From positions 1 through 41,618 of the IMG/VR virus record IMGVR_UViG_3300048921_000054: a stretch of DNA of 41,618 nt; one strand, 5' to 3'. The position numbers were made by a program, and so were the translations under genes. Under the pieces are notes generated by a model. The model did no database searches. It saw nothing but the letters and a program-made list of their open reading frames with translations, and had not been told where the DNA came from. This document shows, piece by piece, positions 19,761 through 32,807 of the stretch. Source of the stretch: a virus. Within the stretch, counting starts at the first letter, position 1; every line of letters starts with the position of its first letter.

Positions 19761-20070
19761 TGCCGTCTTCCTCTTTCGCTTCTTTCGCCATCACAAGCCA
19801 CATATCAGGGCAGACGCGCATCACGTTGCTGAATACGCGAAGACCGGCGTTACGTTGGCCTTCATTAAAATTCGTTGCGTTGTTGTCCCCGGTGAAGCTG
19901 GAGGCGAACACCTTTGTTTCTTCCAGAAGAGACCAGACGAACCGGCGGCCTGAAACTGTGTTCATGATGTTTTCGATGTCCTGATCATCACGCTTTGCCA
20001 GTTCTGCGGCCTTCTTCTGCTCCTCTTCTAACCGCTGCTCGTTCTCTTCCTGTTCGTAGACTTGGCTCAT
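19753..20070 (-). CDS. Bbp19-like phage protein
   Basis: 105 residues. After a Glu/Lys-rich N-terminus, the block SGRRFVWSLLEETKVFASSF, then NEGQRNAGLRVFSNVMRVCP, matches the Bbp19-type family found beside portal genes of BPP-1-like and other podoviruses. The biochemical role is unknown. It overlaps the portal stop as ATGA and the next gene by 8 bases. Its conservation in this position suggests a part in head assembly or portal incorporation. Confidence 0.75.
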   Translation of the reverse strand: MSQVYEQEENEQRLEEEQKKAAELAKRDDQDIENIMNTVSGRRFVWSLLEETKVFASSFTGDNNATNFNEGQRNAGLRVFSNVMRVCPDMWLVMAKEAKEEDGNG

Positions 20071-21728
20071 GGCTGCATTGCCCCCGCGACGGCTGACAGC
20101 GCGCTCGGCTGATCTGTCTGGGTTTCACTGAGGGCTTTCGCACCCTGCACTGCTGCCATGCTGGTTTGCATAGCCTGCTGTTGCTGCTGCTGTTTGGCGC
20201 GTTGTTCACGTACCTGCGCAACCTGGTCACTGGTCGCGATGATGGTGGCCGGAACGCCAACCATGCTGCCGTAGTCATCGATCGCCTGATCGACGTTGAG
20301 TTTGTCCAATGCAGCAGGATTGGCCTGAGCCAGACCACCGACGAAGCCGACGAAGCGCTCAATGGAGCCAATGCCTACGGCTTTCTGTGCCTGAGCCATG
20401 ACAGAGATGTATTCAACGCGCAGCGACTGCCCAGCCAGCTCAGGCGGAGCCGGTGGCAACATGTTCTTGCGCGCCATGATGTTGAAGATTCGGTCGATGG
20501 AGGGATCGAGAAACTCATCGTTGAGGCGTTCCAGCACCGGCCCCAGCATCAGCAGCTTCTCTTCCTTCATCTCGACCACGGCTTCCACCGGCATACTGCG
20601 TGTGTTGACGTTTTGCAGCATCATGAATAGGTCAACGAAGTAGCTGGAGTTGATGAGGGAGCGTGTGTCCTGAATGTCGGCCACCAGCTCATTGATCTTT
20701 GGGTTGATTGTGTAAGCTGGTTGGAAAGAAGTATTGCTGCTGACCTGGTCAACGTAAGTGATCTCACCAGGAAGCAGGCTGGCGCGTTGGTTGCGTAAGC
20801 TGGACGGCCCCACCATCGGCGGATTAACAAGTTTGTCGATGGCTTGAGCTTTGCGGCGTTGCTCGAGCTGTAGAGCTTTAACGCTACCCAGCGCAATCAT
20901 GCCCGGACATGACGAACCGTAAACATCCTCGCCGTTGATATCCCAGCGCGGCGCCATGATCGGCATATCATCAAAACCTTTCTCGCTCAGCAGCTTGTCA
21001 CCGCCGCCACCGCACTCTAAATAGACAGAAGAAAATTTCTTGTTCTTCGAATCCATCTTGCCGGTGTCGCGGTTCATGTTCGGCTCAACGACGTGAACAA
21101 CTTCAAACCACTGCTCGTATTGCTGGCTGGTCCATGCTGATTTAACGCTGTCACTGACGTTATCCAGGCCGAAGCGCTGGACGATTTGGCGGCATGTCAT
21201 AGAGAACTTGCGATAAACGGTATCGACCTGCAGGCGGTCGCTGTTCGACAGGCAGTAACTGCCGATCGGGAATGGGTGCGTGCGAATCACATCTTCGTCG
21301 TCTTCCAGCAGTGACATCGCTGTTGTGCCGAAGGTGCCCAACTGGCCGTAAACAATCGGCAATGACTGGTACCAGTTCGATTTGTTCATCACATCGTTCA
21401 TGCGGTTCTGAACAGTTTCGAGCCAGAACTTAACCGGCCCGTATTCCATCATGTCCGGGTCAGGTGTGCCGAGGGTGAACCACGGGCGCGTCGGGCTGGT
21501 TATACCGGACAACATGCCGCTGGATAGCGTGCGGCTCGCCAGTGTCGCTGTTGGATCAACGATGTTGGTATTGCGCTTAGACTGGTTGCGTTCAGTGGTG
21601 AGGAATCGGCTGCTGCGAGGCAGAACAAAATCTGACAACTCGCGCCAGTGCGGATCAAACGATGAGCGCTCTGTTTCCAGAGATGCCAATTGCTTGATGT
21701 AAAACTGCTTGCGCGATTCTTCAGCCAT
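20067..21728 (-). CDS. Portal protein (head-to-tail connector)
   Basis: 553 residues, T7/epsilon15-type portal. The N-terminal block (SLETERSSFDPHWRELSDFV, then LPRSSRFL) and the following NIVDPTATLASRTLSSGMLS, SPTRPWF are typical. A Gln-rich C-terminal tail (REQRAKQQQQQQAMQTSMAA) could reach into the capsid as a barrel. A ring of this protein forms the DNA entry vertex, docks the terminase and later the adaptor. It lies downstream of the small gene at 21732 with a 3-base gap, and upstream of the Bbp19-like gene. Confidence 0.88.
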   Translation of the reverse strand: MAEESRKQFYIKQLASLETERSSFDPHWRELSDFVLPRSSRFLTTERNQSKRNTNIVDPTATLASRTLSSGMLSGITSPTRPWFTLGTPDPDMMEYGPVKFWLETVQNRMNDVMNKSNWYQSLPIVYGQLGTFGTTAMSLLEDDEDVIRTHPFPIGSYCLSNSDRLQVDTVYRKFSMTCRQIVQRFGLDNVSDSVKSAWTSQQYEQWFEVVHVVEPNMNRDTGKMDSKNKKFSSVYLECGGGGDKLLSEKGFDDMPIMAPRWDINGEDVYGSSCPGMIALGSVKALQLEQRRKAQAIDKLVNPPMVGPSSLRNQRASLLPGEITYVDQVSSNTSFQPAYTINPKINELVADIQDTRSLINSSYFVDLFMMLQNVNTRSMPVEAVVEMKEEKLLMLGPVLERLNDEFLDPSIDRIFNIMARKNMLPPAPPELAGQSLRVEYISVMAQAQKAVGIGSIERFVGFVGGLAQANPAALDKLNVDQAIDDYGSMVGVPATIIATSDQVAQVREQRAKQQQQQQAMQTSMAAVQGAKALSETQTDQPSALSAVAGAMQP

Positions 21729-21990: not shown

Positions 21991-22019
21991 TTGACAATTA
22001 ATAGATGTGTAGTTACCTT
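21991..22019 (+). promoter_or_regulatory. Promoter of the structured RNA unit
   Basis: A perfect -35 box, TTGACA (21991-21996), is followed after 17 bases by a weak -10, TACCTT (22014-22019), which lies inside operator O2. The predicted start is near 22026. The overlap implies direct repression in the lysogen. The flanking 50 bases are AT-rich. Confidence 0.6.
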
Positions 22020-22028
22020 TAAGGTAAC
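22012..22028. promoter_or_regulatory. Repressor operator O2, perfect palindrome GTTACC-TTTAA-GGTAAC
   Basis: This is the best site of the set: a perfect 17-base inverted repeat around a central T. It covers the -10 box and start region of the structured RNA promoter, so bound repressor would exclude RNA polymerase. Confidence 0.75.
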
Positions 22029-22573
22029 TATTGAGTCGTCATGATTGATAGCTGGTATGAAACCACAGTGAAAAGAACGGTCGTAAAAACGACGCCGGAG
22101 CGTAACCGGTGGTAGTACGGGGCAGCACGGTAAAGCCTGCCAGTTCGTAAAGCACGTGACTGCGTGTTACCCGAACCGCGTTGGCTGGGAGGTCAGCACC
22201 CAACAGGTAAGAGCGCTTGAAGCAAGAAAAGGAAGCGATAGCGAACTGAATGGATAACTGTCGAGTGCTCTTTCCGTTGAGTCGGACATCTCAACACCCG
22301 TTCCATTACCAAATGAAAACTTACATGCAAGCCGCAGGCAGTGCCTGTTATCTGCAAAGGTTTAAAAACTGGAGCAGTCCGGTACTGGAACCGGATCACC
22401 GAACTCAGCGTTGCTGGACGTAAACCAGCGTATTACCGCATGAGCATTGATTCGATAACCTCCAAGGCTTAACGATGTGGTGCTTGGCGGTGCTCAGCCG
22501 GTAATACCTGTGACCGTGATACATCCCATTGCTGTGTGTAGTCTTTCGCCTCCTTCGCCGGGGGCATTTTTTT
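22026..22573 (+). ncRNA. Large structured RNA of unknown family, about 550 nt
   Basis: No convincing reading frame covers this stretch, but it is full of helices. Perfect or near-perfect pairs are 22080-22084/22089-22093, 22095-22098/22106-22109, 22121-22125/22137-22141, 22143-22147/22172-22176 with inner 22153-22156/22163-22166, 22180-22187/22194-22204 (two blocks), 22211-22218/22263-22270 (two G-U), 22276-22281/22290-22295, 22335-22339/22343-22347, 22378-22383/22390-22395 and 22413-22417/22425-22429. A long stem, 22430-22438/22499-22507 plus 22441-22446/22491-22496, encloses 22462-22466/22483-22487. Unpaired CGUAA motifs recur (22101, 22146, 22419). It has its own promoter, operator and terminator. 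Size and ornateness recall GOLLD and ROOL phage RNAs; I cannot assign it. Confidence 0.75.
22548..22573 (+). terminator. Intrinsic terminator of the structured RNA
   Basis: GCCTCC (22548-22553) pairs with GGGGGC (22560-22565), one G-U pair, around TTCGCC, followed by ATTTTTTT. It lies 17 bases before the ATG of the gene at 22591, so the RNA would normally end here, with read-through giving the mRNA. Confidence 0.8.
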
Positions 22574-22590
22574 AACCTCGAGGTATACCC

Positions 22591-23136
22591 ATGAGCGACA
22601 AAGATATCGAGCAGGAAATTCAAGCCAAAGGCAAAACCGCACCCCGCATCACGCCTGACCATATTGAGTCTGTGATTTCTAAATGCCATTTTATTAACGC
22701 TGGAAAATCATTGCGTGCTGTCTGGCCTGTTCCTGAAATGGCTGACCATGTTAGCCCTGTGCTTAATCTATTAACCATCTGTGTTCTGGTTCTCAAGAAT
22801 GGATTTACCGTTACCGGCGAATCAGCCTGCGCCAGCCCAGATAACTTCGACGTGGAGATCGGACGTAAGATTGCGCGTGATAATGCTGTGCAGAAGGTTT
22901 GGGCGCTGGAAGGGTATTTGCTGAAGCAGAAACTTTACGTCGCTGGTGAACGCGGCATGATGATTGAGTACGTGCAGGACTCCATTAAAGAAGGCTACAA
23001 GCCATACTATGGATTGCCTGAAAAATGCCTTGCATGGCTTTCTGACGAATGTCTTAAGATCGAATATGATTTAGCTGTGGAATACTACGCGCCCGGGCCA
23101 GACGGAAAGTCACCGCAGCGCGGAGTTGGTGAGTAA
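22591..23136 (+). CDS. N4 gp49 / Sf6 gp66-like protein
   Basis: 181 residues. Residues 17-110 fit the phage family of N4 gp49 and Sf6 gp66: ITPDHIESVISKCHFI, a variable part, then NGFTVTGESACASPDNFDVE, IGRKIARDN and VWALEGYLLKQKL. Function is unknown; the family is widespread and usually near early or accessory genes. The C-terminal 70 residues are an unfamiliar extension. A Shine-Dalgarno GAGGT lies 7 bases before the ATG. It is on the plus strand between terL and the portal operon, both minus, and behind the terminated structured RNA, so its expression probably depends on read-through or an unseen promoter. Confidence 0.8.
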   Translation: MSDKDIEQEIQAKGKTAPRITPDHIESVISKCHFINAGKSLRAVWPVPEMADHVSPVLNLLTICVLVLKNGFTVTGESACASPDNFDVEIGRKIARDNAVQKVWALEGYLLKQKLYVAGERGMMIEYVQDSIKEGYKPYYGLPEKCLAWLSDECLKIEYDLAVEYYAPGPDGKSPQRGVGE

Positions 23137-23225: not shown

Positions 23226-24701
23226 CTACTTATAGGGATCATAATCTGTGGCCACCTGATTAACAGCCAATCCGCCCGGCAGGTTCTGTCTTTTGGTGAC
23301 TGGGAATGCAAATGTCAGCACTAGAGCATCAGCCTTGCCTGGTGAGCGCCCTATCCGCTTTTTGATTTCCTCCTTGGCTTCCAGCACGATTTTCCCGTCA
23401 GTACGCACTTTGTATTCCGCAGTGCTCAGGTCGTCGGCTGTTTCCTGATCATCCAGAGAACCGCCAATCTTCAGCCACGATTTGCAACTGTTGTACATCT
23501 CGCCGCGCTTGTTCAGCATCTGTGGATCGGTTGAGCCACCGCCGAACGGTACCAGTTGCCACGTCCTGCCCCAGCCGTCGCCGATGGATTTGATGCCGTT
23601 GCCGTAACCGAAGTCGATAAACACCTGGTCTGCTTTGTACTGGTCTTCAAAGTCAGCAATGCGCTTCGCGGATATCAGTTCGTCAGTGGTTTTCGGGTAT
23701 GTGCCGAGGCATTTGCTGTGCAGCCCCTGACGCATGTAAATCACGAAGTCATCCGCGCCGGAATATGCAGGGTCAACGCCGATGATGATCGGGGCGTGCG
23801 ACACCTCGGCGGCTGTCCACTGGCGCTTCATGGCGGCATCGGTCAGGCCGGTAGGGATGAACTGCGCCTCTGATACGTCAGGGAAGATGCCACGCACACG
23901 CACCTTCACGAAGTCGCTGTCCTCGCCGTAGTCGTCAACCCACTTTTGTAGCTGCTCTTTGTTGGTACCCTCAACCGTGCGGCTGTCAATCTGTGCGCAG
24001 TGCCAGCGGTGCTTGTACTTACGGAAGCATTCGCGGAAACGTCCGCTGTTACGGGTCGGGTTCCCGAATGCCACCCAGATGATTTCTGTGTCTTCGTCCG
24101 TTAGTGCGCCTTCGGCAACCTCCCACACCAGATCAGCAATGTTGGACGCTTCATCGAATACAACGATGATGCGCTTGCGCTCGTTGTGCAGACCGGCGAA
24201 TGCTTCAGTATTGTGCTCGCTCCACGGGATAGCATCGGCGCGCCAGCGTTTATCGTGGCCGCTGTCATTGCTGTACATCGCAGTGGCGGTTGTCGTGAAC
24301 CACGGCTTGGTGATTGCGAGGTTCGACCATTTGATGATTTCCGGCCACGTCTTGGTGCGCAACTGGTTCTCGGTGTTGGCGGTCACCACCACCTTACAAT
24401 CCTCGCAGGTGGACATGCCCCAGTTCATCAGCATGGAGATGAATGCAGACTTACCGATACCGTGCCCGGATGCCCTGGCTATCATCAGCGGCTGGTGCCG
24501 TGTTGCCGGGTTTTGCAGATGGTCGCGTATCTCGCGGAATGCATCAGCCTGCCATTTCCTCGGGCCCGCTGCGTGTGCCAGCTCGGTGCCCTCTTCGCCC
24601 CAAGGGAACGCGTAATGCGCATAGCCCAGCGGGTCATGCGTGAAACTGGCGATATCTTCAATCAGCTGTTCTTCCGGGGAGAGTACGGCGGCATCGGTCA
24701 T
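23226..24701 (-). CDS. Terminase large subunit
   Basis: 491 residues. The ATPase domain has Walker A in ARASGHGIGKSA (Lys84, Ser85) and Walker B IIVVFDEAS (Asp183, Glu184). The RNase H-like nuclease has IIGVDPAYSG (Asp310), FIDFGYGNGI (Asp363) and GKADALVL (Asp458). It drives ATP-dependent DNA packaging through the portal and cuts the concatemer. It is coupled to terS by an ATGA overlap. Downstream the operon is interrupted by the plus-strand RNA unit before the portal genes. Confidence 0.93.
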   Translation of the reverse strand: MTDAAVLSPEEQLIEDIASFTHDPLGYAHYAFPWGEEGTELAHAAGPRKWQADAFREIRDHLQNPATRHQPLMIARASGHGIGKSAFISMLMNWGMSTCEDCKVVVTANTENQLRTKTWPEIIKWSNLAITKPWFTTTATAMYSNDSGHDKRWRADAIPWSEHNTEAFAGLHNERKRIIVVFDEASNIADLVWEVAEGALTDEDTEIIWVAFGNPTRNSGRFRECFRKYKHRWHCAQIDSRTVEGTNKEQLQKWVDDYGEDSDFVKVRVRGIFPDVSEAQFIPTGLTDAAMKRQWTAAEVSHAPIIIGVDPAYSGADDFVIYMRQGLHSKCLGTYPKTTDELISAKRIADFEDQYKADQVFIDFGYGNGIKSIGDGWGRTWQLVPFGGGSTDPQMLNKRGEMYNSCKSWLKIGGSLDDQETADDLSTAEYKVRTDGKIVLEAKEEIKKRIGRSPGKADALVLTFAFPVTKRQNLPGGLAVNQVATDYDPYK

Positions 24702-32210: not shown

Positions 32211-32807
32211 ATGAAAAGCATCCACGACATCAGAAGAGAAAACCTCAAAACTATCATTCAGAAAGACTTTGACGGTAGGCAGATCCGCATGGCGGAAGCT
32301 TTGGGTTTTCAGCCTAATTTGATATCGCGTTGGATGGCTTCGCCGGAGATGGCCAGTGCAAAAAATATTGGCGGAGCATCAGCCAGGAAGATTGAAGCCG
32401 CTGCCCGCAGACCGGCGTTCTGGCTGGACACTGACCACGCCATGTCTATTGCCGCAGATGTTGAGCCAGTAGACGCCAACACAGAGATTGGCATTATCGC
32501 AGCCAATAACCTCACCGCGTGGATGCAGGCCAATAAAGAACTGAGAACACAGGCAGCAGTTGCCGAAAAGGCAGAAGTCGGCCAGTCCACTATTAACCGT
32601 CTGCTGAAACGCGAGGCGAGCATTTCTATTAACAACCTGGCTGCCATCGCTGCCGTGTTTAACCGCCGCGCATATGAAATGCTGATCCCGCCGCATGACG
32701 AATCAGTCATTCAGTATGACCACAGCCGGTATGCAGCACTGCCAGCGGAAGATAAAGCCAAGATCAAATCCTTCATCGACTTTGTGATGAGCGAAAACTC
32801 AAAGTAA
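32211..32807 (+). CDS. CI-like repressor with two helix-turn-helix domains and no cleavage domain
   Basis: 198 residues with AGAAGG before the ATG. The first DNA-binding region is IRMAEALGFQPNLISRWM (about 25-42) with the downstream GASARKIEAAARRPAFWLD typical of phage repressor N-termini. The second is a complete Xre-type domain, QAAVAEKAEVGQSTINRLLK with SISINNLAAIAAVFN. The LexA/CI peptidase domain, with its Ser-Lys dyad and Ala-Gly cleavage site, is absent. Position opposite the Cro-like gene and before the early operon marks it as the lysogeny repressor. Induction by RecA-stimulated self-cleavage is therefore not expected. Confidence 0.75.
   Translation: MKSIHDIRRENLKTIIQKDFDGRQIRMAEALGFQPNLISRWMASPEMASAKNIGGASARKIEAAARRPAFWLDTDHAMSIAADVEPVDANTEIGIIAANNLTAWMQANKELRTQAAVAEKAEVGQSTINRLLKREASISINNLAAIAAVFNRRAYEMLIPPHDESVIQYDHSRYAALPAEDKAKIKSFIDFVMSENSK

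Follow-up and report, generated by a model that had tools for sequence, protein, structure and literature searches.

Introduction

RprA is a host sRNA of approximately 105 nt. Among large and ornate phage-borne RNAs, GOLLD and ROOL occur near tRNA genes (PMC12286853). The PasD sRNAs, which are structurally related to STnc100, have been detected by RIL-seq and northern blot, and PasD and STnc100 are RIL-seq-detected sRNAs located near Q (PMC13192938).

The window analysed here is an IMG/VR virus record of 41,618 bases, and its closest named relatives in the phage collection (approximately 78-80%) are Klebsiella ST11-OXA245phi3.2, Enterobacter Tyrion, BUCT554 and epsilon15. An initial annotation had described a large, ornate and unclassified RNA between the terL and portal genes. 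The window RNA consists of an sRNA-like core, formed by an RprA-like 3' segment and a terminator, into which widespread structured modules have been assembled.

Results

The stretch 22012-22573 is a real, free-standing non-coding RNA gene of approximately 550 nt on the strand opposite to the packaging genes. It lies between the portal gene (20067-21728, (-) strand; PHROG 332 head-tail adaptor) and terL (23226-24701, (-) strand; PHROG terminase large subunit), and the next gene past its terminator (22591-23136) belongs to the Phage_gp49_66 family. The statement that 22026-22573 holds no credible gene is borne out: the four internal ORFs have no PHROG match better than E 0.2, the whole sequence is exchanged between close relatives, and no conserved reading frame across the stretch was found in the homologues. 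Coding potential was accordingly rejected.

The slot between portal and terL is conserved in epsilon15-like phages. Among the IMG/VR relatives, gathered via the portal protein, nearly all epsilon15-like contigs have a palindrome, TTACC-N5-GGTAA, 307-350 nt from the portal start, and in the loci with the 3' end covered an RNA of 211-860 nt with a T run at its end lies downstream of it. The initial annotation knew of no such family in epsilon15-like phages, which is too narrow, since the slot is filled in nearly all of those examined, epsilon15 included, and since one of its modules (module A, below) reaches lambda and P1. In some relatives other genes replace 22591-23136, and the slot therefore also behaves as a moron site.

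The -35 box TTGACA (21991-21996, (+) strand, opposite to portal and terL) is followed by the -10 sequence TACCTT (22014-22019), which lies inside and is covered by a palindromic operator, GTTACCTTTAAGGTAAC (22012-22028). Of the promoter first proposed for the RNA, the TTGACA is thus present, but the -10 is poor and a consensus scan for this reason finds no promoter. Of 38 epsilon15-like loci, 36 carry TTGAC exactly 16 nt before the operator. The operator palindrome occurs in nine copies in the window, against 0.69 expected, and several of these adjoin an HTH repressor gene (32211-32807), which together with the flanking copies probably constitutes the immunity region. In epsilon15 the same palindrome is found at the corresponding place, where the record annotates a lysogeny 'repressor' site. 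Since the promoter carries the lysogeny operator of the phage, transcription of the RNA is expected to be shut off in the prophage and to take place during lytic growth.

The folding energy of the RNA is -183.7 kcal/mol (z -2.2); of 200 dinucleotide shuffles, 5 fold at least as stably, and elsewhere in this phage there are 549-base segments with values down to z -3.4. Minimum free energy was therefore considered too weak as proof of structure, and the structure was tested by homologues instead. The energy is only modestly low and by itself does not establish the proposed density of structure beyond random sequence; covariation in the homologues does show that the RNA is structured. The cmscan of the window against Rfam gave nothing at gathering thresholds, RprA being the only weak match worth noting, and no Rfam family was found for modules A and B; with compensatory changes in its homologues, the RNA is indeed large, ornate and unclassified in Rfam.

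The 5' domain (22079-22110, (+) strand) contains a hairpin (22079-22094) and a T-arm-like hairpin (22094-22110; 5 bp, 7-nt loop AGCGTAA). The stretch 22069-22110 is identical at 42 of 42 nt to a unit in the Rahnella plasmid pRAHAQ01, where it sits within an acceptor-like helix after a module A, and the domain is retained in the relatives L110-L112 and L116-L118. It is followed by an inserted domain (22111-22197, (+) strand) of three hairpins (22121-22141, 22143-22176 and 22183-22197), which is missing from the three closest relatives, replaced in L116-L118, and 80% identical over 90 nt to the Pantoea phage PdC23 (blast block 22119-22214). Between PdC23 and the window, two helices show paired changes, from GGCAG/CTGCC to GGCGG/CCGCC and from GCACG/CGTGT to GCTCG/CGAGA.

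Module A (22199-22284, (+) strand) is a long hairpin, CCAACAGGTAAGAGC...GTGCTCTTTCCGTTG. With the hairpin CAACAGGTAAGAGC...GCTCTTTCCGTTG as query, 98 stretches were found in IMG/VR. An alignment of 54 diverse copies extends over an 18-pair stem in which 96.9% of cells pair and 11 of 18 pairs show changes on both sides; there are 40 cells with both-side changes against 7.4 in shuffles, none of 500 shuffles is as high, and slid controls are far lower. The covariance model built from this alignment (R1) scores the window hairpin at 58.1 bits (E 9.5e-15, filters off), although the window is one of the 54 training rows and its score is hence no independent test. By this score and by its compensatory base changes the window hairpin belongs to the module A family.

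R1 also finds module A in P1 (four copies) and in lambda (67.7 bits) and IME10, in both of which the module is part of the late leader, between Q and S. In lambda (J02459, L113) the module occupies 44786-44868, with a cassette that continues to approximately 44990, between orf-64 and S; the cassette has a 9-bp acceptor-like helix and CCA, and the record does not mark the element as an RNA. In P1 (AF234172, L114) four copies with cassettes are found at approximately 69064-70090 between dmt and tciA, near tRNA-Asn and tRNA-Thr. The plp gene annotated in P1 overlaps two of these copies in antisense orientation, and may be a spurious annotation. Epsilon15 gives a weak match (L011 2277-2359, 18.9 bits) to a divergent module A, and its record annotates an RNase III processing site exactly over it. 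In a species-level sample, whose strict filters lose weak matches, module A was found in 26 of 149 Enterobacteriaceae species genomes (17%) and in none of 228 other genomes of the class. With a query derived from lambda (module A and cassette), matches were obtained in 1,015 of 5,426 complete E. coli genomes, in 151 of which they extend along most of the query, and these matches are mostly without annotation. Antisense R1 matches were discarded as an artefact of the near-palindromic hairpin. Lambda-type elements in contigs assigned to Oceanobacillus, Leeuwenhoekiella, Neobacillus, Shewanella, Chromatium, Streptomyces and Pseudomonas (L201-L206, L197) were not counted; they were taken as lambda contamination because several of the contigs are approximately 48.5 kb and because the R1 scores of L197, L201 and L204 are identical to that of lambda. 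In one contig (L126 3437-3557, (-) strand) the tip of module A holds an apparent whole tRNA-like fold with the T-arm GCAAGGTTCGATTCCTTGC, as if a tRNA were nested in the hairpin.

As a rule, what comes after module A is a tRNA-like cassette with an acceptor, D- and T-like arms and often CCA, and sometimes it is a true tRNA. By Watson-Crick pairing, 57 of 90 units have a strand complementary to GTTGTGGTG directly 3' of module A, where shuffles give 4.3, and in 20 of these 57 it is followed by CCA; a laxer test (8 of 9, G-U allowed) was abandoned as useless, since its controls reach 98%. Some of the cassettes can be aligned on acceptor-, D- and T-like helices, which are 95.7% paired and show compensatory changes at six pairs. 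True tRNAs occupy the slot in six units (Arg-TCT in five, Gly-CCC in one) and start 2-3 nt inside the last strand of module A, and the Rfam tRNA model calls the cassettes of PdC23 (L002, 37.4 bits) and L039 (46.4 bits) at slot +2. There was no need to assume an X1-Y-X2 switch with strictly exclusive pairings: in Y, pairs 4-9 belong with X2, and GTT(G) belongs mostly with X1. A P1-like tRNA region (L076 1237-1321, (-) strand) gives a selenocysteine tRNA match below threshold (44.6 bits, gathering 47).

In the window, no tRNA-like cassette stands directly 3' of module A. Its slot is occupied by a tiny hairpin, GTTGAG-TCGGACAT-CTCAAC (22276-22295, (+) strand; 8-nt loop), to which the cassette has shrunk, whereas the closest relatives (L116-L118) have the cassette. 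Neither ARAGORN nor Rfam finds a tRNA in the window, while the same slot in relatives does give tRNA calls. The window RNA has lost the tRNA-like cassette and gained other domains. The cassettes resemble phage tRNA genes and tRNA-like structures in the acceptor-like helix, the D- and T-like arms and, in many, the CCA, but they differ in their fusion to a hairpin on the 5' side, which shares sequence with the acceptor strand; tRNA calls are missing for most of them, and that of the window is only the mini-hairpin.

Module B (22335-22412, (+) strand) is composed of a hairpin (22335-22347), the conserved AAGGNNTAAANNCTGGAG and a second hairpin (22378-22395). It is found in Erwinia MIF8, Klebsiella pKP-BM327, SonariX, Salmonella and Enterobacter plasmids and 10 further IMG/VR contigs. 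In a set of sixteen sequences hairpin 2 pairs in 100% of cells, and four of its five pairs show both-side changes. Roughly one copy in two is at most 500 nt from tRNA genes (ARAGORN, within a 500-nt neighbourhood). In L004, L212, L214 and L218 module B stands directly before a module A-type hairpin, and in the window, too, the two modules lie next to each other.

A T-arm-like hairpin, GCTGG-ACGTAAA-CCAGC (22413-22429, (+) strand), follows module B, and a counterpart, GCCGG-GCGATAT-CCGGC, stands directly after module B in the Salmonella plasmid L004. The CGUAA-type loops earlier said to recur are in part such hairpins with a 5-bp stem and a 7-nt loop (22094-22110 and 22413-22429). Next comes the 3' helix (22430-22507, (+) strand), the longest stem of the initial annotation, whose two parts (9 + 6 bp) are both there: GTATTACCG (22430-22438) pairs with CGGTAATAC (22499-22507), with GAGCAT/GTGCTC inside. 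The inner joint GAGCATT/GGTGCTC (22442-22448 with 22489-22495) carries a swappable apical cassette (22449-22488, (+) strand).

The RNA is a mosaic, in which modules and apical tips have been traded between phages at conserved helix joints. In three close relatives, with portal proteins 95-96% identical, similarity to the window extends as far as 22109 and resumes at approximately 22330, from where it runs to the terminator, with other sequence between. The apical cassette 22449-22488 is swapped in L110-L112 and L116-L118. Blast matches to the window RNA fall in blocks, which belong to the Rahnella plasmid, to PdC23, and to Schitoviridae, SonariX and plasmid prophages (the last at 22335-22414). 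The tip of the 3' helix is homologous to the module A tip of L094, which has a different stem (86.7% over 30 nt, E 7e-7). The joint GAGCATT/AGTGCTC bears exchangeable tips, and tips recur on the basal stems AGGTAA/TTTCC, GATGA/TCAGC and ATGCAA/TTTCA. By blast connectivity, which gives approximate clusters, 112 units fall into 55 apical (tip), 66 downstream and 44 upstream clusters, and the lambda apical cassette is paired with 10 downstream and 8 upstream partners.

The RNA ends in an intrinsic terminator, as annotated (22548-22573, (+) strand; hairpin 22548-22565 plus T7). Immediately before it, the segment ATTGCTGTGTGTAGTCTTT (22528-22546, (+) strand) is identical over 19 nt to E. coli RprA; these belong to a longer alignment, of 61 nt, with the 3' half of that sRNA. 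The RprA model (RF00034) gives 36 bits (E 0.017, 22464-22575), under the gathering score of 70, and the window RNA is not an RprA by this measure: the likeness is to the 3' half, with ATTGCTGTGTGTAGTCTTT and the terminator, while the remaining 490 nt are unrelated. CTGTGTG precedes the terminator in 23 of 34 epsilon15-like RNAs, short module-less ones included. Taken together, the RprA identity and the presence of CTGTGTG even in module-less RNAs suggest that the 3' end represents an sRNA core.

Other known RNAs were compared as well. The M3 RNA of phi80, a classic RNase P substrate, was rejected as a family member, since its record describes a homologue of lambda OOP RNA. svsR was rejected since it sits at the 3' end of cI, and lambda PreS since it maps between ea10 and ral (PMC12197685). 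The initial comparison with GOLLD and ROOL did not hold, as neither Rfam model matches the window at gathering or even at E<=10, and membership was rejected; parts of the RNA are instead related to RprA and to tRNA-like RNAs of the STnc100 type. STnc100 (RF02076, gathering 47 bits) has no match in the window but is the closest Rfam family, with 33.4 bits for the P1 cassette and 32 bits for L083, both under gathering. On the P1 cassette its outer helix is aligned onto the acceptor-like helix. STnc100 and PasD share with the cassettes an outer TGGTG/CACCA helix, a 5' hairpin and a 3' hairpin of CCGG type, and, in lambdoid prophages, a location in the phage late region. The STnc100 match differs in spanning only the cassette, with neither module A nor module B. 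As the STnc100 model aligns to the P1 cassette, STnc100, and hence PasD (PMC13192938), look like fragments of a larger architecture of module A and cassette.

Discussion

The reading that best explains our data as a whole, and to which we would give about an even chance from the sequences, is that of an Hfq-type sRNA, made in the lytic phase, whose modules are tRNA mimics or decoys and are shuffled between phages. Such an RNA would be repressed in the prophage by way of its operator and expressed in lytic growth. It comprises the sRNA-like core, that is, the RprA-like 3' segment and the terminator, with widespread structured modules assembled into it. In the commonest pair, module A followed by the tRNA-like cassette, the acceptor-like helix would stack on module A. 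The 3' part may bind Hfq and pair with host mRNAs in the manner of RprA, and the tRNA-like and apical modules may be read by host tRNA-handling proteins; they could be processing sites of RNase P or RNase III, or decoys for tRNA-targeting nucleases. An arms race or changing targets would account for the rapid swapping. The covariation, the tRNA nature of the slot, the modularity, the conservation of operator and -35 box and the RprA-like 3' end all count for this explanation, as does the detection of the related PasD sRNAs as expressed RNAs (PMC13192938). The features in line with an Hfq-type sRNA are the terminator with its U-tract and the RprA-like segment. On the other side, the RprA match is under the Rfam gathering score. 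The window copy is without the tRNA-like cassette, so a function based on tRNA mimicry may be lost here, and the frequent swapping could be simple recombination among related prophages without selection. The lambda module, in the late leader upstream of S, could act in cis.

It is possible, though we think it rather unlikely, that the RNA is a regulatory sRNA of the STnc100/PasD/RprA type only, with modules that are interchangeable seed carriers and stabilisers and not tRNA mimics. The RprA-like 3' end, the alignment of the STnc100 model to the P1 cassette and the detection of PasD and STnc100 by RIL-seq near Q (PMC13192938) are all consistent with this, but it leaves unexplained why bona fide tRNAs are found in the same slot with the same junction, and why the acceptor-like helix is accompanied by CCA.

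Somewhat more doubtful is a cis-acting leader or processing element, in which module A would be a handling signal for RNase III, RNase P or RNase E, serving to protect or mature the tRNAs and late messages next to it, and would have no function in trans. This would fit tRNAs that begin within the 3' strand of module A, the lambda and IME10 copies between Q and S, and the RNase III site annotated over the divergent epsilon15 copy. However, in epsilon15-like phages the RNA is served by a promoter and a terminator of its own and does not lead into a conserved gene; which gene lies past the terminator varies among these phages.

Degenerate tRNA-like cassettes and mosaic exchange at short conserved joints could also be what is left of decaying tRNA arrays, kept as recombination or exchange sequences with no RNA function, but compensatory changes on both sides of the helices and the conservation of promoter/operator and terminator make this improbable. 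Least probable of all is an RNA-only nanocage of the GOLLD/ROOL kind, oligomerising perhaps around tRNAs or other cargo: size, ornateness, phage location and modules near tRNA genes in relatives recall those RNAs (PMC12286853), but beyond size and neighbourhood the cage idea finds no support, with no sequence or structure match to either family, and a strongly modular RNA, whose length in this one slot ranges from 211 to 860 nt and whose domains are exchanged as wholes, is ill-suited to a fixed quaternary interface.

If the shuffled sRNA with tRNA-mimic or decoy modules is considered beyond the window, we may tentatively speculate, at less than even probability, that enterobacterial phages, including lambda and P1, share a combinatorial, domain-shuffled RNA system. 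It would consist of a fixed hairpin joint and an acceptor-like joint with plug-in apical tips, tRNA mimics or true tRNAs, and might provide fast-evolving tRNA decoys that counter host defences aimed at tRNAs, or else interchangeable sRNA effectors. The window RNA would be one assembly of this kind on an RprA-mimicking core.

The genome of phage lambda is one of the most studied. The structured RNA element that its late leader shares with P1 has apparently gone unrecognised, since Rfam gives no match there at gathering and most of the E. coli matches are unannotated. No description of the lambda/P1 element or of its link to the tRNA-like cassette was found in open-licence full texts, an absence that is no proof. 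The module A family offers a clean natural case of RNA domain shuffling and ties the prophage sRNAs STnc100 and PasD to tRNA mimicry. Known relatives exist. Module A, shared with lambda and P1, where it stands beside tRNA-like units, points to a large and mostly unclassified family of phage RNAs that trade their parts.
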